From Veillonellaceae bacterium (lineage in GTDB: Bacteria; Bacillota_C; Negativicutes; UBA1444): 9,638 nucleotides of DNA. The notes beneath the pieces were generated by a model, which saw nothing but the letters and a program-made list of their open reading frames with translations, was not told where the DNA came from and did not search any database. The translations under genes and the position numbers were made by a program. This document shows, piece by piece, positions 3-9,638 of the stretch. Position 1 is the first letter of the stretch, and the number at the start of each line of letters is the position of its first letter. The DNA lies in NCBI GenBank assembly GCA_012798135.1, contig JAAZNU010000066.1, positions 1 through 9,638 of the forward strand, in the 5' to 3' direction.

Positions 3-362
3 AAATAATTTTCTTTTAAAGAAAGGATATTGAACAGAAATATATGCAATAGAACTCGCTTGTAGGGATTTCTGTTCTAAATTACTATAATAAACTGAAG
101 CTTTAATTAAATATTTTCCAGGAACAATATCTTTGGGTATTGTTAAATTTTTGATAGTAGAAAGAGAAGATTCTACTGCAAACGCTTCTTCACTCCTAGT
201 AAAGATTTCTTCTGTTTCAGGAGACATTAATCTCAAGTCAAATTGTACATCTACTTTTTTAGTCTGACCTAAATTTAATAAATCAGTTTGTAATCTTAAG
301 ACCTGTCCAGGCTCTACAACAGAAATTAATGGAGATATTTTTATATCTAAAAGTTTACCTTC
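3..362 (-). other. Membrane-proximal beta domain 2, cut at the window edge (residues 3093-3212)
   Basis: EGKLLDIKISPLISVVEPGQ, VLRLQTDLLNLGQTKKVDVQ, FDLRLMSPETEEIFTRSEEA, then NLTIPKDIVPGKYLIKASVY and IAYISVQYPFFKRKLF. 'v-e-P-G-q-x-l-x-l-q-t-d-l-l-N-l-G' and 'i-v-P-G-k-Y-l-i-k-A-x-V-y-Y' are the spacer strands. Only one sequon (NLT) occurs. The frame is open to the window edge; the basic FFKRKLF end is what commonly precedes a transmembrane helix, so a C-terminal anchor is expected within a short distance. This last point is inference. Confidence 0.65.
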
Positions 363-3300
363 TGGATTTAGGACTCTTATTGTTACTGGAATCTTCCCTT
401 GTTTAGTCCTTGTATTAAATACTAAATTTCCCTCATAAGTTTTAGGTTCTATTTTTTGTGGGAGGATTATCTTAACCAGAAGGTCTTTTGATTCTTTTCC
501 TTCAAAATTTAAAGAAGAATCTGCAAAAAAGATAAAATCTTCGATATCCCCCTCAGCAGTTAATCTCATAGAAACAGGAGTTGTTAAAGTATTAGCAAGA
601 GTTACTCTTGCACTAGCACTTTCTCCTGCAAATAATTCTTTGTATATTGAAGTGGTTTCAATTTTAATCCCCCCTATATCATAAAAGTTTTCAAATATAT
701 TTTTAATTTGTTCTAAACTTACTCCACTCCCCCCACCTCCCCCACTTCCCCCGGAACTAGGGACAATATTAGCTGTTTCTTTACAATCTAAAGAACAAGA
801 TGAAGTGGTTTCTAAATAATTTCTTTCACACAAACCATTCCCACATTTATTTTCTGCTAAAAAGTATGAAGAAAATCCAAAAGAGTTCCCCTGAACTTCT
901 TTAGTACTCCGGTTAATATAGCTATTCAATGTTTCCCAAGAACCAGTACATGTTCTTGAAGAATAATTCCAAGATTCACATTTAACAATTTTTAGGTTAT
1001 AAGAAGATTCATAATTATATGGAGTATAATTAAAGATTATTGTTACAGGATTAGAAGAAAATCCAGAAGAATTAGAGGAAAATCCAATAAAAGGTTTGTA
1101 TAAAGGAATTTGTTCTGAAAGATCATTAGCATTCATTTTATAAAGATTTAAACTTAAATTTGAAGTTGAAACATTTGAAAGATTAACATCCTTAATAATA
1201 ACTTTATCCTTATCAAAATCAAGTTGAATATCATAAAATCTACGATTGACACTCAAAGAAACTTTACCTAACATATCTGTTTCTCCGTTTACTAAAATAG
1301 TTGAAGTATTTGGTCTTAATAAATTCAAAATTATTCCCGGGATAGAATCAAGATTATTATCAAAGAAGGATAAATCCCACTTGTAAAAATCATAAACTTC
1401 AAACCAATCTAAAGTAGAGTTTGAGTTTCCAGAACTGTCTATTGCAGTATAATTGATTAAATATTCCCCGGGTAAAGTTAGATTAATTGTATTATTTGTG
1501 TATGTTGTTGAATCAATCTTTGTAAAGATGACATCTTGGGTGGAGAGGTTTGGATAAATTAAAATTGCAGAAAAATTATCTACAAAAACATTATCTGTAA
1601 TCTCGGCAATAAGAGAAATATTTTGGTTTTTATTAACATTTGTTCTAGTAATATTAAACTTGGGGGAAGTAATGTCTTTATAGATGATTAAAGAGGGTTC
1701 TAATTTTTCTAATTTACCATAATTAGGATGTTCTAATTGGAGTAATAAATCATAAGTTCCTCCATCAGAGAGATTAGGAGCAGTACATAAAATAACCCAA
1801 TTAGTTTGATTATAAAAATAGTCCAAGTTAGAACAAGGAATATTATTAATTAAAGGCTCCCAAGTAATGTTATTATCTATAGAATTCCCTTGATAGCTGA
1901 CATTAACTAAAAAAACCAAATTATCTCCTGGGCTAACATTAACAAAGGGAGAGAGACTTGTTGGTGAAAAAACATTAATCAAAACATTTGAAACTGTTAA
2001 GTTAACTAAAATTTCTCTATACAGAATAGAAGAAGCAGGATTAGTCACATTTATTTTAGCTTGATAAGATCCCTCTTCTGCAGGAGCGGTATAATTAATC
2101 AAAAATTTAGCAGATTGGCCTAAAGGAATATACAATGAAGAAACATTTGTGCTTATAAGAGAGGTATTTGTTGAAGAGATTTCAAAAGTCATATTAACAT
2201 TTCCTAAATTGGTTATTAAGACTTCCTGAAGATTACCTGAGGTTTCTCCGAATTTAGTAACATTAATTGAATAAAAAGAAAGATTCCAATCCCAGTTTGG
2301 AAGTACATTCGCAGAGATTTCCACTAATTGGGATACATTTTTTTCTGAGATGTTTAATGTACCATAATACATTCCGCTTTCAAGATTTCCTTTAGAAGTA
2401 AGATTTAGGTTTAATAATTTAGAATTATTAATTGGAATATTAAAGTTAGATTCATTTGGTGTTATAATAAAATTAGAACATAATGCTCCGCTTACACAAT
2501 TAAAATTGAATAATTGCAATAAATCATTCCCGGTGTTTTCTAATGTTAAATTTAATGAACTTGTTTCATTCATAAAAACATTATAAACTAAAGAAGAAGG
2601 CGAGGGTAAAAAAGATTTATTTGATAAAACATTAATTGTTAGAGGGGTTGTTCTAGAATCTAAAGTATTGTCAGGATTTCTCCAATTTATAGTTGCATTT
2701 AGGTTATAGATTCCTGGAGGAGTTAAAGGAGAAATATTTACTTGAAAAGTTTGATTATACTGAGTGTGATATGGAAGAGGGTCAAATGTATAACCTCTTG
2801 GATTAAGGGAAATATAATTGTTATTAGAAAAATTAATAGAAGGCGTATAAGCAGAAACTATTCCAGTATTATTTATAACATAGTTTATTGGAAAAGAATC
2901 CCCAGTTGTTTTAGTTATTTGAGAAGTTGAAATAGAGGAAAGATTTCCAGATATATTCAAGATAACAACTCGATAACTTGTAAACAAAAAGTCTTGACTT
3001 ATAAAAGATTTAGGAACACCTGTTGGTGCATCATAAACCCAAGCTTTAACCCTATAATCTCCAGCATAAAGAGGGGTAAAGTTTACAGAAAAATTGGCGA
3101 CAGTTCTCGCACCTAAAGGGCCAACACACTGTCCGTATTCCCCGCAAAGATTCTCTGCAGTTAAAGTGGTTGTTGAAGCCCCATAACTAATATTCACTTT
3201 CATAGAACTTTCATTTAAATTTACATCGTCAATTGCTCTTATTTTAATTGTAAGGTTTTTATTGACTTCAGCTCTATTCCCACTTATCCCCTCAAGGTAA

Positions 3301-6300
3301 AACCATATATTAGTTATATTTGGAGCCAGTTGATTTATCCAAAAGGCATTTTCGTTATATCTTTCTTGGGGTATAGCATTAGAATTAAAAAACTTAACAA
3401 TAATCCTTACATCATTAAGGTCTAATGAATATCCTTTTTGGTAAATTGAAAAGGAACTATTTTCTCCCTTTGGTATATTTATGACAGTAGGATTGTATTC
3501 CCCATAATTTGTAGAAAAGATATCACTACCAAAACAGGTATAATCACAAGGTAAAACTCCATCACAAATACAATCCCCTTTTGAAAGATAACTTACATTA
3601 ATGGTTAAATTTGTATTACCTGTATTAATTAAAGTATAATTTGCTATTACCCCTGGGTCATTTAATGCATATGAAATATTATTAGTAAAATTTGAAGAAG
3701 GGAGATAATACCAAGAATAATCATAAGGAACATTTATTGTAAGATTAAAAGATTTAATTCCCCCATTTAAACTGGAAACATTTATTATAGAAGAATAATT
3801 TCCAGGAGAAGTATACTTTGGAACATGAATAGAAAGATTGACCTCCCTTGTTTCTCCTGCTCCTAAACTATCTATATAATTAGGATTAAAGGATAACCAA
3901 TTTTCAGGAATATCCCCCTCTAAAAGAGTGAGATTTATTCCCAAAACTGTACCTGTTCCTATAGATAAAACACTAAAATTAAAAGAACTATTCTGGCCAT
4001 GAGAGACTGTCTGATTAAAACTATTCCCAGAAATATTGAGCAATGAATTTTCAGATATATTGATATAACTCTCATAAGAAATATATTCATCTCCCCCAGA
4101 AGTTCCACCATCATTATCTGTCCAATTTGCTCTCCAGGTTATTAATCTATTCCCTGAATAAATTCCTGATTTGATTCTAATCATCAAACTGATGTTACAA
4201 GATTGCTCTGGAAGCAGTTTAGAACAATAAGAAGTTTGGGTCATGTTTGCAAATGATCCTGGAAGTGAAAGAGATGGAGACCAAACGTGAATATCACTCA
4301 TACTTGCTCTTCCAGTATTATTAATCGTAGAGTTTAGATAAAAAACATATTCAAAATTAGGATTATAATCCGCAATTTCAATGCTTGGTATATAAATCTC
4401 TCCGGAAGTATTTTTTTCTTCTAAATAATCATTAAAATTTACAATTGTTAAATTTCTGTAATATGCGCTTTCATTGTATCCTGTCAAATTAATTGAATAG
4501 TTCCCAAACATTAGTTCTGTGGGGATAATCCAACTAATATAACAACTGTTTATAGCATCACAATATTTTGTTGAGGAAAAACTTGAATTGTATATAACTG
4601 CTTTAATTGTTCCGTTAATTAACCCTCCTGTGTCCATTCTTGTATAATTTACTCTTAATGAATAATTAGATATTTGTGAATAATTCCTTTCCACAGAATA
4701 AACAGGTATTGTATTGGCCCAAATTGAAATATTCTTATTGATTTGACCAACTACTGCTGGGTGAGTATCATCTGCTAACTGAGAGATTCTTACTTCTAAG
4801 GGAAGTATACCCAAATCAGTTGCAGGGATTGTAACATTATGAGTGTAATTCCCATTTGAATCTGTAGTAGCATTAAATCCTAATATACTAATTCCAGTCA
4901 ATACGGGAGATTGAGTTTGATTTGATGTTAAAAACCAAACTTTATATTGAATATATGGTTTTGAAAAGTTAGAAATCTCTGTATTCAAATTGTCAGTATA
5001 ATTTATACTCCATTCATCCCAAGAATTTCCGTCATTACTCTCCCTTAATTGAACTTTTATTTCCCCATTATTTAGTTGTCTTTCCCATTTTAAGATAGTA
5101 TAGGTCACACTTGGAAAATATAATGGATTAGATAAAAGAGTTCCAAAAGTAGGATATTCGTAATTAGAAAAGTTAAATTCAAATCTTACAACTGGATTTT
5201 CTTTTGAAAAAGAAAAAGTATCTGAATTGATTTTGATATAAACTGTTGATCTACCATTTAGGTTAGGAATAGTATCTCCGATTATAACCCCATTTAAAGT
5301 GGTTGAAGATAGAAGATTCCAATTAGAGTTATCAAAACTATACCAAAGACTGGTGTTTGCTCCAGGGGGATTGAGGGGATTTGCGTAAGTTTCAATATAA
5401 GCACTTGCATTATAAAACAAAGTAGGAGAATCAAATCTATAAATGATATTCCCCTGACTAGAAACCATATTATCTAACCAGAATAAACTTCCTGCAGGAG
5501 CATACCATCCTTCGCTAGAATAATTAATTACATTATTTTCTGTAGTATAATTGTTTGTATAATAAGTGTAAGAATTTGAAATTTGATCTCCGTATAAAGA
5601 AAGGTTTAATTTAGCCTGACCATTACTTGCGTTTACATTTAAAACAGTTAAAGAAGAAAAGTCAGAATAATTAAATGTGTTAGTTGAAACAGTGATATTA
5701 TTTATTTTAATAATAAACTTTTGATTAGGTAACAGTGTGCCATCATTCCCTGTTATAGTCCCATTAACCGATATTATTTCTGTGGTATTTACAAGTGAAG
5801 GAGAATTTAATGTAATATTCGCAATTTGAGTAATATTTTTGTAAGCTATGTTTTCATTATTTGAATCATTAGATTCCATAATTAAATTTTGAGGGTCTAT
5901 TGTAATGTTAAATTTTTGATTTAATCCTGCAACAAGAGTTTTTGTACAATTAGTAAGGAGAGATGTGCCCCCTTTAATTATTGTTAATAACTTTGAGTCA
6001 AATAATAAATCATTTAGATAACAAGAAACATTAACATTAGATGCATTTGAAGGTTGATTATTTGAAACATTAATTGTTATTAAAGTATAGTTTGAATATA
6101 ATTCAGGGTATGAAACATTTGAGATAGTTAAATCAGGGAGTATAGCTCTCACATTATATTCTGTATAATCTCTCCTATTTGAAAAACTATCATTACAACT
6201 TATTGTTATATTATGATATCCATGAGAGAATTGCGTATAAGAATAGTTTGTTAAGTTTTTATAATAATTTATGCTCATAGTTAAATTTTGATTTCCATCA

Positions 6301-9300
6301 ACACTTAATAAACATTGATCAACATTATACAAATCGTAAAGGGTTGCATTAATGTTAACAAAATTAGAATATTGGATTGAATTATTCAAAGGATGAAGTA
6401 AGGTTATTATTGGAGCAGTAGTATCTAAGTAAATTGATTCTGTTGAACTAAGCCCGATAATTCCTTCATCATTTACAACACTAGCATTAAAAGAATAATG
6501 GCCATCACTTAAGCCTGAGAAAGTGTAAGAGTAATAATCTCCAGCTGAAACCCAGCTAGTTGAATTGATTAATCCAGACCCATTATATAAATTAAGAGTA
6601 AGATTCTTAAAAATGCTACCATACAAATTTAGGGTGATATTAATGGTTATTTGATTTGAAGAATAATTGCCAGTTAAAGTTGTTGGAGAAACAAATTGTA
6701 TCTCTGGTCCTTGTTTTATAACTAAATTATCTTGCTTTAATACTTTTTTAATATAACCATTCTCATCTCCTGCGTAACAAAAGTCTGAATCACAGTATAA
6801 AGAATAATACCAGTTATTTGATAGTTGATAAGTATATCCAATAGTGAAATTATGAATTTGAACCCCAGAATTTTTATTTATTTGAAGTAACATCCCTTGT
6901 AGATTTATTGCAAAACAATATACTGAGTCACAAAAAAGAGAGCTAGAAATTGCACCTATCTGAGAAGTATCAGAAAAAGGGTATATATTTAGAATGGCTC
7001 CGGAAGTTTTATTTAATCTTAAAAAAGAGACCTTATAATTGTCAAGAAGAAGTGTGCTAAGTATATAACAAAAGTCTGAATCACAAGATAAACCTGAAGC
7101 AGTAAAAGCAGGAGACTGATTAAGTGTCCAGATAAGGTAACCAGGTGTGGTATTGTATATGTGTATCCCCGAGGTTTTGTTTATTTTTAAGAAGTAACCA
7201 TTATGATCTATACCATAACAAAAGTCTGAATCACAAGAGAGGTGTAGAATAGAGGCATTAGATAATTTATTTTGGTAGCCTGTTGTTGTGTTGTAAATAT
7301 GTACTCCGGAAGTTTTGTTTATTTTTAAGAAATAACCATCATTATCTCCACCATAACAAAAGTCTGAATCACAGAATAAAGAAGAAATCGAGTTAGTAGA
7401 TAATTGGTTTGTGTAACCTGATGTTCTATTCCATATGTGAACTCCGGAAGTTTTGTTTATTTTTAAGAAATAACCATTGTAATCTCCACCATAACAAAAG
7501 TCTGAATCACAAGATAACCTAAAGCCATAACCTGAACCCAACATAGTCTTATAACCTGTTGTGGTATTGTATACTTGTACTCCGGAAGTTTTGTTTATTT
7601 TTAAGAAATAACCATCATTATCTCCACCATAACAAAAGTCTGAATCACAAGATAGAGAACGGATAACACTAAGAGGAGTAAGTCTGGAAGAAGTATTCCA
7701 AACCAATCGATTCAATTTATAACTTTCTGAAGTATTTGTTCCATCATCTGCATAAACGCTTAAGTTAAGCACATCACCCGCATTTTTGCTAGCATTTAGG
7801 TAAGTTGTTGTCAAAGATCCAGATTGAATATTAGTTAGAGTATCATTTTCAACATTTGTTCCATTGATATACCATTTAAAATAAAGGGTGGCATTATCAT
7901 TATCTAAATCTGAAAAGGAAGTATAAGCACTAATTTCTGATGAAGGGTAATAAGGGGGATTTATTTGAAGCCAGTTTATTACGGGAGCAGAATTAATAAT
8001 TAAAGAAGAAGAACTGTTCTTAACTTCTCCATAACTCTTTGTATCATAAGGTTTAACTTCACAAACCCAGTTATCTCCTTTTGTAAAATTGGTTGAAGAT
8101 AAACTTGTATTTTGAATAGTTCCATTATATATCCCCTCTAATTGAAAAGTACTATTAAAAATTCCATTTTTATACCAAGTAATATTTAAAAATAAAGGTT
8201 CTCCGCTATTTTTTCGTATTTTAAAAAGAGAGTAAGAATCATCTGTAGTGTAACAAAAGTATGAGTCACATGAAACTGCCACCATATAAGAACTTCCAAA
8301 AGAAGAAATTTTATTTGTGTAACCACTTGTTCTATTATAAATGTGGACTCCGGAAGTTTTGTTTATTTTTAAGAAATAACCCCCCCTATCCCTACCGTAA
8401 CAAAAGTCCGAATCGCATGTAAATCCTCTAATATAATCACTCGGTTGATTTACATAACCTGTTGTGGTATTGTAAATGTGGACTCCGGAAGTTTTGTTTA
8501 TTTTTAAGAAATAACCAAATGTATCCCCTGCATAACAAAAGTCTGAATCACAGTAAATTTCGTCAGCGATTGCAGTTGAGGTAAGTCTATTCGTATAACC
8601 ACTTGTTCTATTATAAATGTGGACTCCGGAAGTTTTGTTTATTTTTAAGAAATAACCATAATCATCTACCCCGTAACAAAAGTCTGAATCACAGAATAAA
8701 GAATAAATCCCGTTAGTAGATAATTGGTTTGTGTAACCTGATGTTCTATTATAAATATGAACACCTGAAGTTTTATTTATTTTTAAGAAATAACCAGACA
8801 TATCCCCTGCATAACAAAAGTCTGAATCACAGAATAAAGAATAAACACCATAATTGGAAAGTCTGTTTGTATAACCTTCTGTTGCATTGTAAATCTGCAC
8901 ACCAGAAGTTTTATTTATCTTATAAAAATAACCAATATTGTCCCCTGCATAACAAAAGTCTGAATCACAAGTAAAAGAAATAATTGTAAAAGCAGCAAAA
9001 ACATTAGTTTTTTCTCCCCAAACAACAACCGGATTATCATCACTAATTGTAAAATTACAAATTAAGTTTTGATTTTTATCTAAAGTAGCAGGAGTTAATA
9101 TAACAGATGTAACGTTTGGAGGAAGATTTACAAAGAAATTTAATAAAGTTGCAGAATTAAATGCATTTGAAGTATCATTGCAATATACTGTAAGATTGTG
9201 ATAACCAGAAGCTAAGTTTGTATAAGTATAATTTGCAAAAGTTTTGTCTAAATTAAGAAGCATTGTAAAATTTTCTTGATTATCTAAACTTACAAAGCAA

Positions 9301-9638
9301 GAATCAACAGAACTTCCTGTTATTGAAGCATTTATTGTTATATTTGAACCAACATTATCGCTTGTGTTTGTCGGGTAGTTTATTGTAATTGAATCAACAG
9401 GGTCAATAACAAAGTCAAAGTCAATGCTGTTTATTATCTTTAAGTCAAAAGAATCTTGAGGATTGGTTAAATTTGTTAAGTATATCTTATAATATGATTC
9501 ATTTGTTATGTTTTCAAAAGTTGCTATCAATTGGGTTTGGTTTCTTTCATAAACTTCTATTGTAGAAGTATTTTCATTTGAAGACTTAGCATAAATTGTT
9601 ATATCCCTTGATGAAGTCAAATTAGTTTCAAATTGAAG
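3..9638 (-). CDS. Giant extracellular multidomain glycoprotein, partial at both ends
   Basis: One stop-free frame fills the window on the minus strand (3,212 complete codons, from LQFETNLTSS to YPFFKRKLF). Start and stop codons lie outside, so the full protein is longer. I see no signal peptide or membrane helix in the visible part. It is a chain of about 20 beta-sandwich modules (Ig-like, CARDB, NEW3-like), two predicted beta-propellers, a cysteine knot, a Gly linker and a sequon-poor C-terminal pair of domains. N-x-S/T sequons are dense throughout except in the last 240 residues, which fits an N-glycosylated surface protein. Cysteines are sparse overall and cluster in the propellers and in a few small motifs, where they are mostly paired. 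No catalytic motif was recognised. The likely role is a cell-surface or S-layer-associated adhesin or stalk protein of an archaeon, possibly DPANN. The reading frame is certain; function and taxon are inferred. Confidence 0.96.
363..722 (-). other. Membrane-proximal beta domain 1 (residues 2973-3092)
   Basis: VSLEQIKNIFENFYDIGGIK begins with a short amphipathic helix, followed by ELFAGESASARVTLANTLTT, PVSMRLTAEGDIEDFIFFAD and KIEPKTYEGNLVFNTRTKQG. The 'G-e-s-a-x-v-x-v-x-l-x-N', 'k-e-s-k-d-l-l-v-k-i-x-l-P', 'p-k-t-y-e-G-n-l-v-f' strands match spacer domains that bind the anchor region of archaeal surface proteins. It has no N-x-S/T sequon and is richer in Lys and Glu than the stalk. Confidence 0.65.
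723..782 (-). other. Flexible linker with Gly-Ser tract (residues 2953-2972)
   Basis: KETANIVPSS is followed by GGSGGGGGSG. The low-complexity Gly-Ser run has no predicted structure and separates the glycan-rich ectodomain from the C-terminal pair of domains. In the coding strand it is a very G-rich island (G runs of five, five, two and six bases) in otherwise AT-rich DNA. Confidence 0.9.
783..845 (-). other. Six-position Cys knot motif C-G-N-G-x-C-E ... C-S-L-D-C (residues 2932-2952)
   Basis: Twenty-one residues with four cysteines: C-G-N-G-L-C-E-R, then a short linker with E-T-T, then C-S-L-D-C. This 'CGNGxCE-(x)n-E-(x)n-C-x-x-D-C' motif recurs near the C-terminus of many extracellular archaeal and eukaryotic proteins as a small disulfide knot; the same acidic positions are kept here (E after the second Cys, E in the loop, D before the last Cys). 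It sits between the last sequon-rich domain and the Gly linker. Confidence 0.85.
846..1091 (-). other. C-terminal Cys-pair beta domain (residues 2850-2931)
   Basis: FIGFSSNSSGFSSNPVTIIF, NYTPYNYESSYNLKIVKCES, WNYSSRTCTGSWETLNSYIN, then STKEVQGNSFGFSSYFLAEN. The run 'i-v-k-C-x-x-W-n-y-s-s-r-t-C-x-G-x-W' followed by 'v-x-g-x-x-x-x-F-S-s-Y-x-l-A-E' resembles a closing domain I associate, from memory, with archaeal surface proteins; it also has some likeness to the PGF-pre-PGF context. It leads directly into the CGNG knot. Confidence 0.65.
1092..1385 (-). other. Carboxypeptidase-regulatory-like domain (residues 2752-2849)
   Basis: YKWDLSFFDNNLDSIPGIIL, LLRPNTSTILVNGETDMLGK, then VSLSVNRRFYDIQLDFDKDK and VIIKDVNLSN. 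The pattern 'l-x-P-n-t-s-t-x-l-x-n-G-x-T-D-x-x-G-x-V-s-l-x-V-x-r-r-x-Y-d-i-q' resembles CarboxypepD_reg/SpaA-like domains, where a property is modified by a short beta-barrel. This region is richer in Lys, Asp and Arg than the stalk before it. Confidence 0.55.
1386..1670 (-). other. Ig-like module (residues 2657-2751)
   Basis: TSPKFNITRTNVNKNQNISL, IAEITDNVFVDNFSAILIYP, then TTYTNNTINLTLPGEYLINY and TAIDSSGNSNSTLDWFEVYD. 'd-n-v-x-v-d-n', 'l-p-G-x-Y-x-i-n-Y-t-A-i-D-s-s-G-N' are classic Ig/HYR-like motifs, making this one of the best-matching modules in the chain. Confidence 0.72.
1671..1985 (-). other. Ig-like module with Cys pair (residues 2552-2656)
   Basis: VLINVFSPTSLSPFVNVSPG, DNLVFLVNVSYQGNSIDNNI, then INNIPCSNLDYFYNQTNWVI with LCTAPNLSDGGTYDLLLQLE. 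The strand 'v-s-P-G-d-n-l-v-f-l-V-n-v' and the close 'd-G-G-t-Y-d-l-l-l' give an Ig-like sandwich. The cysteines in IPCSN and ILCTAP probably pair. It ends SLIIYKDI before the next TSPKF opening. Confidence 0.6.
1986..2294 (-). other. NEW3-like module (residues 2449-2551)
   Basis: WDWNLSFYSINVTKFGETSG, EVLITNLGNVNMTFEISSTN, SLYIPLGQSAKFLINYTAPA, then EEGSYQAKINVTN and REILVNLTVSN. 'i-t-N-l-G-N-v-n-m-t-f', 'p-l-G-q-s-a-k-f' and 'e-e-G-s-Y-x-a-k-i-n-V' follow the same spacer grammar as the preceding module. No cysteine. Confidence 0.6.
2295..2618 (-). other. NEW3-like module with one Cys pair (residues 2341-2448)
   Basis: KSFLPSPSSLVYNVFMNETS, SLNLTLENTGNDLLQLFNFN, then CVSGALC, then FIITPNESNFNIPINNSKLL and GMYYGTLNISEKNVSQLVEI. 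'l-x-N-t-G-n-d-l-l' and 's-G-x-Y-y-G-t-l-n-i-s' are the two marks of this spacer class. The CVSGALC pair forms a small local loop. Confidence 0.58.
2619..2978 (-). other. NEW3/CARDB-like module (residues 2221-2340)
   Basis: SYRVVILNISGNLSSISTSQ, then DSFPINYVINNTGIVSAYTP, then TQYNQTFQVNISPLTPPGIY and NLNATINWRNPDNTLDSRTT. 'N-n-T-G-x-v-s-A' and 's-P-l-T-P-P-G-x-Y-x-l' identify the structural-spacer type shared with the other modules. No cysteine. Confidence 0.55.
2979..3320 (-). other. Ig-like module (residues 2107-2220)
   Basis: NITNIWFYLEGISGNRAEVN, then KNLTIKIRAIDDVNLNESSM, then VNISYGASTTTLTAENLCGE, with YAGDYRVKAWVYDAPTG at the end. The 'a-x-D-d-v-n-l' and 'y-a-G-d-Y-x-v-k-a-w-v-y-D' strands are standard for an Ig-like domain following a P-x-I opening. 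A short Cys pair (LCGEYGQC) closes a hairpin. Confidence 0.6.
3321..3725 (-). other. NEW3/CARDB-like module with Cys-rich loop (residues 1972-2106)
   Basis: YDYSWYYLPSSNFTNNISYA is followed by NYTLINTGNTNLTINVSYLS, a strand pair typical of NEW3-type modules. An unusual loop, CICDGVLPCDYTC (3534-3572), is inserted between strands. The module closes with TVINIPKGENSSFSIYQKGY and VRIIVKFFN. The four close cysteines with three acidic residues could make two local disulfides or a metal site. Function unknown. Confidence 0.55.
3726..4043 (-). other. NEW3-like (NPCBM-associated) domain (residues 1866-1971)
   Basis: LLNISGNSFNQTVSHGQNSS, then GDIPENWLSFNPNYIDSLGA, then GETREVNLSIHVPKYTSPGN, ending FNLTINVP. 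The succession 'iP-e-n-W-l-s-f', 'l-x-a-G-e-t-r-e-V-x-l-x-i-x-V-P', 's-P-G-x-Y' is the hallmark of the NPCBM-associated NEW3 family, common in extracellular archaeal and bacterial proteins as a structural spacer. Confidence 0.75.
4044..4409 (-). other. CARDB/DUF11-like module (residues 1744-1865)
   Basis: TSGEIYIPSIEIADYNPNFE leads into YVFYLNSTINNTGRASMSDI and later CSKLLPEQSCNISLMIRIKS and ITWRANWTDNDGGTSGGDEY. The core 'N-n-t-G-r-a-x-m-s-d' strand and 'l-x-p-e-q-s-C-x-i-s-l' strand recall the alternating-strand pattern of CARDB and DUF11-type domains, where a Cys pair (here in YCSK and SCNI) stabilises the loop. The segment ends with YINISENS. NST, NNT, NMT, NIS and NWT sequons are visible. 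Confidence 0.55.
4410..4703 (-). other. Beta module with close Cys pair (residues 1646-1743)
   Basis: VYSVERNYSQISNYSLRVNY, then GGLINGTIKAVIYNSS, then KYCDAINSCYISWIIPTE and LMFGNYSINLTGYNES. The strand 'G-x-I-n-G-t-i-k' and the closing 'G-n-Y-s-i-n-l-t' fit an Ig/Big-like module of the kind used for material properties or stress in repeat proteins. CDAINSC is a six-residue-spaced Cys pair, likely a local disulfide. Family not assigned. Confidence 0.5.
4704..4868 (-). other. Short Ig-like module with D-S-N-G-N-Y turn (residues 1591-1645)
   Basis: TTDSNGNYTHNVTIPATDLG and PLEVRISQLADDTHPAVVGQ end in ISIWANTIP. The 'T-D-x-n-G-n-y-t-x-x-v-t-i-P' strand is typical of the second half of repeat Ig-like modules. 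Its first half is probably the preceding IS-I-LGFNA strand, so the boundary with the domain before is soft. Confidence 0.45.
4869..5153 (-). other. Beta-sandwich with R-x-S-x-D-G-x-x-W motif (residues 1496-1590)
   Basis: ILKWERQLNNGEIKVQLRES is followed by NDGNSWDEWSINYTDN and SKPYIQYKVWFLTSNQTQSP, ending VLTGISILGF. The series 'W...l..G.i.vqlR.S.DG.sW..W', 'yiQykv.l.s.....sP.l..i.i' is a recognisable module found in secreted proteins beside sugar-binding or sialidase-like domains. I know it by pattern but not by a secure family name. No cysteine is present. Confidence 0.6.
5154..5531 (-). other. Possible jelly-roll / carbohydrate-binding-like module (residues 1370-1495)
   Basis: NVINYSSEGWYAPAGSLFWL, then IIYRFDSPTLFYNASAYIET, then SLWYSFDNSNWNLLSST, then STVYIKINSDTFSF and NPVVRFEFNFSNY. 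The strand order and the 'a-v-Y-v-k-i' and 'W-x-x-S-x-D-x-x-x-W' motifs resemble modules that describe how much a sample differs from a reference, and the discoidin-like or sialidase-associated beta sandwiches. Aromatic residues are enriched (many W, Y, F), which could suit glycan contact. Assignment is tentative. Confidence 0.45.
5532..5831 (-). other. Beta-sandwich module after CARDB (residues 1270-1369)
   Basis: TQIANITLNSPSLVNTTEII leads into SVNGTITGNDGTLLPNQKF and VNASNGQAKLNLSLYGD. The pattern 'g-v-x-d-x-x-G-t-l-l-p-n-q-x-f' followed by a G-x-a strand resembles domains in which a value or modifier is described by two strands, such as invasin/Big-like folds, but I cannot name the family. 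It ends in a Tyr/Asn-rich stretch (YTYYTNNYTTEN). Confidence 0.5.
5832..6143 (-). other. CARDB-type adhesion domain (residues 1166-1269)
   Basis: The segment starts ILPDLTISNVSYPELYSN and runs through TLITINVSNNQPSNASNVNV. It ends with the diagnostic FNITIDPQNLIMESNDSNN. The opening 'P-D-L-x-I/V', the central 'N-x-x-x-x-x-A' strand and the final 'vDp-n-i-Es-dsNN' are the marks of the CARDB family (cell-adhesion-related domain found in bacteria and archaea). Two cysteines (SCYLND and NCTKTL) may pair. It lies mid-stalk. Confidence 0.82.
6144..6416 (-). other. Ig-like domain 5 (residues 1075-1165)
   Basis: APIITLLHPLNNSIQYSNFV, a Cys in VDQCLLSVDG, and closing strands HGYHNITISCNDSFSNRRD match the layout of domain 1 (9126-9395), including both cysteines and the GYHN turn. 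This suggests duplication of a module. It ends at EYNVRA, just before the CARDB domain. Confidence 0.72.
6417..6725 (-). other. Ig-like domain 4 (residues 972-1074)
   Basis: This follows directly on the last half-blade of propeller B: LVIKQGPEIQFVSPTTLTG, then ITINITLNLYGSIFKNLTLN, and the closing strands YTFSGLSDGHYSFNASVVND. It ends in ESIYLDTT, with the next module starting at APIITLL. It has no cysteine. The 'L-D-T-T-A-P' junction is a common boundary between Ig-like (Big/HYR-like) modules in surface proteins. Confidence 0.7.
6726..7706 (-). repeat. Beta-propeller B: seven PQQ-like blades (residues 645-971)
   Basis: Seven blade motifs start at Cys codons with upper bases 7649, 7511, 7373, 7235, 7085, 6932 and 6794. 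Unit lengths are 46, 46, 46, 50, 51 and 46 residues, then a 23-residue half unit ending KKVLKQDN. A 19-residue half-blade, LVWNTSSRLTPLSVIRSLS (7650-7706), comes first and again keeps the docking Trp, so ring closure would give seven blades. Blades 1-4 match the consensus closely (blade 2 has HIWNRT with the true Trp). Blade 5 carries about five extra residues (CYILSTLLLDNYKVSFLRL). Blade 6 is degenerate (CDSVYCFAINLQGMLLQINK). All seven keep C-D-S and the second Cys. Confidence 0.75.
7707..7991 (-). other. Ig/PKD-like domain 3 between the propellers (residues 550-644)
   Basis: SAPVINWLQINPPYYPSSEI opens the module. It continues with FSDLDNDNATLYFKWYINGT, a PKD/Ig-type 'D-x-D-x-D ... WyvNGt' strand, and closes with AGDVLNLSVYADDGTNTSES. 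It is a sister of the split domain but lacks the Cys pair. The acidic DLDNDN turn could bind a metal ion, as in some cadherin/PKD-like modules; this is speculative. It separates propeller A from propeller B. Confidence 0.7.
7992..8201 (-). other. Ig-like domain 2, second half (residues 480-549)
   Basis: EPLFLNITWYKNGIFNSTF continues the domain broken at 9033, with the typical TWYKNG strand. The closing strands are FTKGDNWVCEVKPYD and GEVKNSSSSLIIN. The Cys in WVCEV pairs logically with the Cys of LICNF in the first half, so the core disulfide would span the inserted propeller. Joined, the two halves give about 101 residues, normal for this module. NIT, NST, NGT, NTS, NFT and NSS sequons are present. 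Confidence 0.78.
8202..9032 (-). repeat. Beta-propeller A: six PQQ-like blades (residues 203-479)
   Basis: Six blade motifs start at Cys codons whose upper bases are 8969, 8831, 8693, 8552, 8417 and 8270. Unit lengths are 46, 46, 47, 45 and 49 residues, then a 23-residue half unit. The consensus is CDSDFCYxGDxxGYFLKINKTSG, then VHIYNRTSGY and a variable tail. KINKTSGVHIY aligns with the PQQ tryptophan-docking pattern AxDxxTGxxxW (D to N, T to S, W to Y). A 21-residue half-blade, PVVVWGEKTNVFAAFTIISF plus T (8970-9032), precedes the first Cys and keeps the docking Trp. The block ends at KIRKNSG. First and last halves together make one blade, the usual ring-closing arrangement, so I predict a six-bladed propeller. 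Blade 6 (CDSYFCYTTDDSYSLFKIR) is divergent. The family assignment rests on pattern only; no PQQ-binding residues are claimed. Confidence 0.75.
8320..8657 (-). repeat. 62-bp identical pair, skipping the blade in between
   Basis: Bases 8320-8381 and 8596-8657 are identical over 62 positions (blades 5 and 3 of propeller A). The intervening blade 4 differs at the N-R-T / N-T-T part. This suggests that a two-blade unit was duplicated, or that conversion acted between non-adjacent blades. Confidence 0.9.
9033..9125 (-). other. Ig-like domain 2, first half (residues 172-202), interrupted by propeller A
   Basis: LPPNVTSVILTPATLDKNQN followed by LICNFTISDDN gives the first three strands of a familiar Ig module, with Cys in strand B and a D-D-N turn. 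The expected continuation, a '[GD]xLxxxxTWYKNG' strand, is missing here. It appears 277 codons later at 7992-8201, so the propeller is nested in the loop after SDDN. Confidence 0.75.
9126..9395 (-). other. Ig-like beta-sandwich domain 1 (residues 82-171)
   Basis: The segment opens with ITINYPTNTSDNVGSNITINASI, which has the usual first strands of bacterial/archaeal Ig-like domains. It ends with the diagnostic last strands GYHNLTVYCNDTSNAFNS ('dG-hn-tVya-D-agN' pattern). Two cysteines (in DSCFVSL and VYCND) sit on opposite strands and could form the core disulfide. The same layout recurs at 6144-6416. Confidence 0.7.
9396..9638 (-). other. Partial N-terminal beta domain (residues 1-81)
   Basis: The visible part begins inside a beta-rich domain. 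It has alternating hydrophobic strands (DITIYAKSS, TIEVYERN, LIATF, YYKIYLTNL, SFDLKIINS) and ends in FDFVIDPV. From memory, a similar segment ending in a D-P-V/I motif precedes Ig domains in other large surface proteins of DPANN archaea. The domain is cut by the window edge, so neither its start nor its family can be fixed. Sequons NLT, NTS, NQT, NIT and NES are present. Confidence 0.55.

Follow-up and report, generated by a model that had tools for sequence, protein, structure and literature searches.

What do thirteen cysteine-bearing repeats in a giant surface protein fold into, and what might they serve? The question is raised by a 9,638-nucleotide stretch of contig JAAZNU010000066.1, deposited under Veillonellaceae bacterium (the whole stretch is hereinafter designated the window), in which the repeats occur in two blocks (block 1 and block 2). 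To our knowledge, how DPANN archaea recognize and hold their hosts is largely open. We consider it probable that the locus encodes a giant DPANN protein whose cysteine-pinned, PQQ-like propellers stand on a stalk of immunoglobulin (Ig)-like, CARDB and NEW3 domains and bind a partner cell or glycans, with an ATPase acting at the contact.

One minus-strand frame is open across the whole window and encodes 3212 residues with zero stops. CDSDFCY-type anchors mark six units in block 1 (residues 224, 270, 316, 363, 408 and 457) and seven in block 2 (residues 664, 710, 756, 802, 852, 903 and 949), and Tandem Repeats Finder independently and unprompted reported two arrays of 138-base repeats, one at 7137-7649 (score 564), the other at 8314-8969 (score 557), in agreement with the thirteen units placed there by an initial annotation made from the sequence. 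That annotation had also described a half-blade first and an incomplete unit last in each block. By eye, both blocks indeed start with a D-type (fourth) strand (PVVVWGEK from residue 203, base 9032; RLVWNTSS from residue 644) and end with a unit that has no D strand (base 6726 falls within residue 971), so that the block ends can complement each other as ring closure needs. The same blade units recur in proteins from elsewhere, which makes the arrays more than chance.

Profile-profile comparison with hhalign points to the family of the blades. The propellers of the window and of L001, a homologous open reading frame (ORF) in a Nanoarchaeota metagenome-assembled genome (MAG), align over 252 columns with those of two loci, L035 and L036, that are ordinary PQQ propellers per Pfam (98.4%, E = 9.8e-15), versus at most 0.2% for the reversed and five shuffled versions, bearing out the PQQ-type register that had been suspected. 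P0012, a relative with cysteine-bearing blades, clears the PQQ_2 cut-off at 42.6 bits and gives weak matches to BamB chains in the PDB (E 8e-4 to 0.014); the whole window ORF matches BamB (TIGR03300) at E = 0.0078 only. Judged by homology, the window blades are PQQ-like, in register and divergent, and because they fall under the PQQ_2 gathering score we do not file them as PQQ_2 members. A PDB sequence search with each block as a single-sequence query gave no match. A PDB match of the profile query to MtrB (E 0.018-0.019) was dismissed as chance, as were short, partial Pfam matches to the repeated motif, namely Tox-ART-HYD1 (25.3 bits, cut-off 25, 30 residues) and Antirestrict in block 1, and Fascin, Antirestrict and Colicin_D in block 2.

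In the AlphaFold model, block 2 is predicted to be a propeller in which four-stranded units close into a ring. A repeat array folded otherwise than as a propeller, such as an open solenoid, is contradicted already for block 2; the sole point in its favour is the shallowness of the alignments behind the models, and we regard it as extremely unlikely. The initial proposal of a six- and a seven-blade propeller is thus supported in part: block 2 is predicted to be a ring, and the low-confidence model of block 1, for which an eight-bladed design ranked first in Foldseek, leaves the blade number unfixed there. The Foldseek lists are headed by two-propeller chains and the eight-bladed Tako8 and were used only together with the VIA rows. 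WD40 propellers, typically seven-bladed, make up most of the VIA rows listed for block 1, and the aligned range often extends to model residues below 48 and above 304. Block 1 could accordingly form a seven-blade-like ring completed by Ig strands, or represent a seven-blade array that lost one copy through assembly. The seven units of block 1 in relatives P0014, P0015 and P0016 point the same way, as does an exact 62-base repeat inside block 1; exact repeats between blades reach 74 bases, long enough to make an assembly error in blade number possible. Such a collapse is without read-data support, however, and a D strand first with strands A-B-C last permits closure at any unit number, so that, taken with the unfixed model, we hold a seventh blade to be possible but on balance the less probable outcome.

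All thirteen window blades carry C-x4-C at the predicted A-B hairpin, a place occupied in PQQ blades, by eye, by a short N-G type turn. We scanned for blades with the Cys columns excluded from the score, using a scoring matrix from the same seeds as the blade profile (70 stretches chosen by Cys pattern, one of them, at residue 1693, false). The scan, which is incomplete (9 blades versus 14 by blade-profile search in P0012, and 1 versus 3 in P0013), returned 118 blades in 11 proteins, with both cysteines in 111, neither in four and one scored in three. In these last (P0014_234, P0015_1544 and P0016_1622) the turn is longer and both cysteines are present by eye, leaving a lone cysteine in 0 of 118 blades. 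The four losses represent three positions, namely blade 2 in P0001 and P0002 (probably a single event), P0017_588 and P0004_805. Because the blades, like the proteins, share common descent, no probability is attached to these counts. Presence or loss as a pair is the pattern that a disulfide per blade would give, and a disulfide probably pins the A-B hairpin of each blade.

Propeller 1, corresponding to block 1, interrupts an Ig-like domain at one of its loops. With a profile derived from 22 Ig-like modules (P0005-P0008 and P0011), the two flanks of propeller 1 give one match when joined, at 54.3 bits in the window (7.8 and 33.6 apart) and 30.9 bits in L001 (7.7 and 13.1 apart). Single spanning matches of 36.1 and 40.0 bits are likewise obtained with the joined flanks of P0015 and P0016, and swapping the flank order yields separate matches only, none spanning both. 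Cys194 and Cys526 lie on opposite sides of propeller 1, and exactly one Cys per flank is found in all seven proteins examined with this propeller 1, which form two groups of relatives and not seven independent cases. From this pattern, the Ig-like domain probably closes around propeller 1 via its own Cys194-Cys526 disulfide. The same profile, applied to whole P0014-P0017 at E 1e-3, gave no domain scoring more than 8 bits. Block 2 comes after an intact Ig-like domain, without nesting; in P0003 (by eye) and P0017 a single block is present, at the block 2 position.

A protein search returned 11 matches, P0001-P0004 with blades and P0005-P0011 with the Ig part alone (by eye), to which a further search added P0012 and P0013; the first genome-contig scan found none and the second L001 only. 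L001 comprises 3667 residues, is open at its 5' end and is collinear with the window, whose residues 171-3212 align to its residues 94-3166 at 49.0% identity. Over the same stretch, identity is 49.2% for P0015 (4973 amino acids) and 48.5% for P0016 (5051 amino acids), and P0014, P0015 and P0016 are collinear with the window over ~3,040 residues at 48.5-49.2%. A membrane segment and a HerA-type ATPase are present in P0014 to P0017 (Pfam and hydropathy; P0016 by precomputed domains). Simple hydropathy places hydrophobic segments near residues 48 and 4471 of P0015 and near 48 and 4549 of P0016, and a HerA/DUF87 ATPase follows the second segment (E = 1e-12 in P0014, 5.1e-10 in P0015). P0015 has a LamG domain at 621-776, and the C-termini of P0015 and P0016 are charged by eye. 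The N-termini of P0015, P0016 and P0017 have a common start, MVHKKYIKRGGK.FGPYLY.NYRENGVTKT.YLGLA, ahead of the first hydrophobic segment. P0001, P0002 and P0004 have ~1170 residues, a hydrophobic C-terminus and a very similar C-terminal region. P0012 (770 residues) combines a pilin-like N-terminus, by eye, with 14 blade matches and may thus carry a pair of propellers on an anchor of pilin type.

Several observations weigh against the reading proposed at the outset. AlphaFold confidence in the two block models is modest, with a predicted local distance difference test of 61.6 and 63.0 and a predicted template modelling score of 0.43 and 0.62, from alignments of 5 sequences. Block 2 scores 12.8 bits against PQQ_2 (PF13360; cut-off 27.6), and block 1 has zero PQQ_2 rows in the Pfam search. 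The joined Ig flanks score only 4-6 bits more than the halves do in total when run as short pieces, so the case for a split domain rests on the complementary profile positions and the Cys pair, and the Ig profile fails on the flanks of P0001, P0002 and P0004 (-0.2, 8.2 and 8.6 bits joined; -0.5, 9.0 and 5.6 unjoined). The window ends where the second hydrophobic segment starts, and an ATPase in this very gene is therefore inferred from the relatives. P0001, P0002 and P0004 have two blade blocks and no ATPase in their sequences, so the propellers do not require one. Finally, no obvious secretion genes were seen by eye in the L001 neighbourhood (L042), covering one contig; this neighbourhood neither supports nor excludes secretion.

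Features of the window and their coordinates (bases of the window; residues of the ORF)
Feature	Bases	Strand	Details
ORF, ectodomain part of giant surface protein	3..9638	-	open at both ends; native start and native end outside the window
Split Ig-like domain, first half	9036..9131	-	residues 170-201, profile positions 7-38; contains Cys194
Propeller 1	8199..9032	-	lone D strand PVVVWGEK and six C-x4-C units, ~residues 203-480, between the Ig halves
Split Ig-like domain, second half	8010..8192	-	residues 483-543, profile positions 45-96; contains Cys526
Second, uninterrupted Ig-like domain	7713..8009	-	~residues 544-642; partial profile match at residues 544-610, end placed by eye
Propeller 2	6714..7709	-	lone D strand RLVWNTSS and seven C-x4-C units, ~residues 644-975
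CARDB domain	5850..6137	-	residues 1168-1263, E = 2e-9
NEW3 / NPCBM_assoc domain	3792..4004	-	residues 1879-1949, E = 8.2e-14

The 54 cysteines of the window ORF occur by eye in local pairs or fours throughout, except for residues 194 and 526 that bracket propeller 1. A Cys-rich motif, CGNGLCERNYLETTSSCSLDC, lies at residues 2932-2952 (bases ~783-845, minus strand), ahead of a Gly-rich linker, and its counterpart in L001 is CGNGLCEVTYGETTSTCSNDC. Next to L001 lie, by eye, a probable coiled-coil gene (no Pfam family) and a gene for a surface protein with a Gly-rich linker, followed by housekeeping genes, aminoacyl-tRNA synthetase and amidotransferase-like. Another large open frame in the genome of L001 (L003, G001:C39; 4319 residues) matches query residues 834-953 of 966 (E 8.5e-11), the part after propeller 2.

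The distribution of the blades was surveyed in 371 genomes of the phylum of L001. At 1e-6 the propeller profile matched three of the 371, the genome of L001 itself and those of L035 and L036, whose propellers are of the ordinary PQQ kind, and the Cys-blade propeller is thus rare in this phylum. The membrane-segment/ATPase stretch of L001 matched 65 of the 371 at 1e-40; the open frames concerned range from 366 to 12,056 residues, and a few rows represent the ATPase part alone. Matches to the model in 142 of the 371 genomes were not counted as propellers: among the rows listed, most cover only the C-terminal or Ig part, the C-terminal region common to P0001, P0002 and P0004 accounting for most of them. 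A query with the membrane side of P0014 retrieved 326 proteins at 1e-10 or below among 6023 candidates (0.55 to 1.75 times its length), with source names including Pacearchaeota, Woesearchaeota, Nanoarchaeota, Micrarchaeota, Aenigmatarchaeota and Nanohaloarchaea; three of the 120 listed of these 326 (P0015, P0016 and P0017) bear Cys blades (E 1e-3). No relative was found in phage records or IMG/VR contigs, and a viral origin is thus unsupported.

Unit number in block 1 is six in the window, seven in P0014, P0015 and P0016, and eight in P0001 and P0002. For nine of the 13 window blades the nearest neighbour is another blade of this protein, and the most similar pair at the DNA level (identity 0.82) consists of the third blades of the two blocks, which suggests blade copying between the two propellers. 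In P0014-P0016, nearly every blade finds its closest match in another of the three proteins, which may reflect close kinship.

In the proposed working, the window would encode the bulk of the ectodomain of a giant membrane protein from a DPANN archaeon, the nearest named source being a Nanoarchaeota MAG. Two divergent PQQ-like propellers would stand on a stalk that strings together Ig-like, CARDB and NEW3 domains, with propeller 1 in an Ig-like loop. By analogy with the ordinary use of such domains, the propellers, and in P0015 also LamG, would be binding heads on a sequon-rich stalk that recognize a partner cell or glycans. In the relatives the chain is predicted to cross the membrane to a HerA/VirB4-type P-loop ATPase, which, judging from the fusion, may move or assemble something at the contact site from the cytoplasmic side. 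The HerA-type ATPase of the relatives would also suit a type IV-like channel for symbiont effectors with the propellers as docking parts only, as published for nanohaloarchaeal giants, which in the excerpt of that report have a VirB4/TraG-like ATPase with another VirB4-type gene adjacent (PMC10266531); no obvious secretion partner stands beside L001, however (by eye, one contig), and we judge such a channel unlikely here. The propellers might also be rigid, stable spacers or protective envelope domains with no specific ligand. The window ORF has 173 N-glycosylation sequons (mean 74.5, maximum 97 in 500 shuffles), its blades are probably pinned, and its domain types are known from archaeal surface-layer (S-layer) proteins (Jing 2002, by title), all of which would fit a passive role; blade number varies among otherwise collinear relatives, however, which is more like a recognition part, a weak argument, and we think a passive role improbable. 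Bolder and still more doubtful is a one-polypeptide contact machine, in which the nested, pinned propeller would sense a ligand, the stalk would signal to a HerA/VirB4-type ATPase ring that opens transport, and blade copying would retune partner choice.

For the question of host recognition, the locus offers a defined, expressible module, either one propeller of 300-odd residues or an Ig-plus-propeller unit; it points to a protein class joining binding domains and an ATPase in one chain; and it presents structural variants open to testing, the disulfide per blade and the Ig-nested propeller.

Among archaeal S-layer propeller proteins we know of no ATPase fusion. Such S-layer proteins reportedly combine propeller, PKD and helix domains (Jing 2002). 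Judged by that title, they set propellers beside Ig/PKD-type domains at the cell surface, as here, and surface proteins with propeller, PKD and CARDB domains are described for archaeon Mia14 in the excerpt of PMC5498576; an excerpt of PMC9938205 adds nothing on the subject. The PQQ_2/BamB (PF13360) and PF13570 families have the same blade pattern and register, and the window blades differ from them by C-x4-C in the A-B hairpin. Among the papers listed, judged by title and start of abstract and with most subscription papers outside the literature covered, none has Cys-pinned PQQ blades or an Ig-nested propeller. The closest known systems also include the SPEARE proteins SVXNc_0300 and BNXNv_0298, the nanohaloarchaeal giants. 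According to the excerpted account they contain a single Ig-like domain, a pair of WD40-like propellers bearing PQQ-like motifs, ~75 Ig-like domains, a membrane part and the ATPase noted above, and secretion into the host is proposed (PMC10266531). With its giant ectodomain carrying two PQQ-type propellers and Ig-like domains, the window is SPEARE-like in the same sense, ring closure of block 1 being presumed. By contrast, both propellers of SVXNc_0300 and BNXNv_0298 follow the single Ig-like domain, whereas propeller 1 here lies within one, and their lengths are 8,880 and 9,409 amino acids versus 4,973 and 5,051 for P0015 and P0016; a per-blade Cys pair and a propeller within an Ig domain go unmentioned in that excerpt, which sets the two apart by description (PMC10266531). 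The overall design has been described before, and the Cys pair in each blade and the Ig-nested propeller look new.
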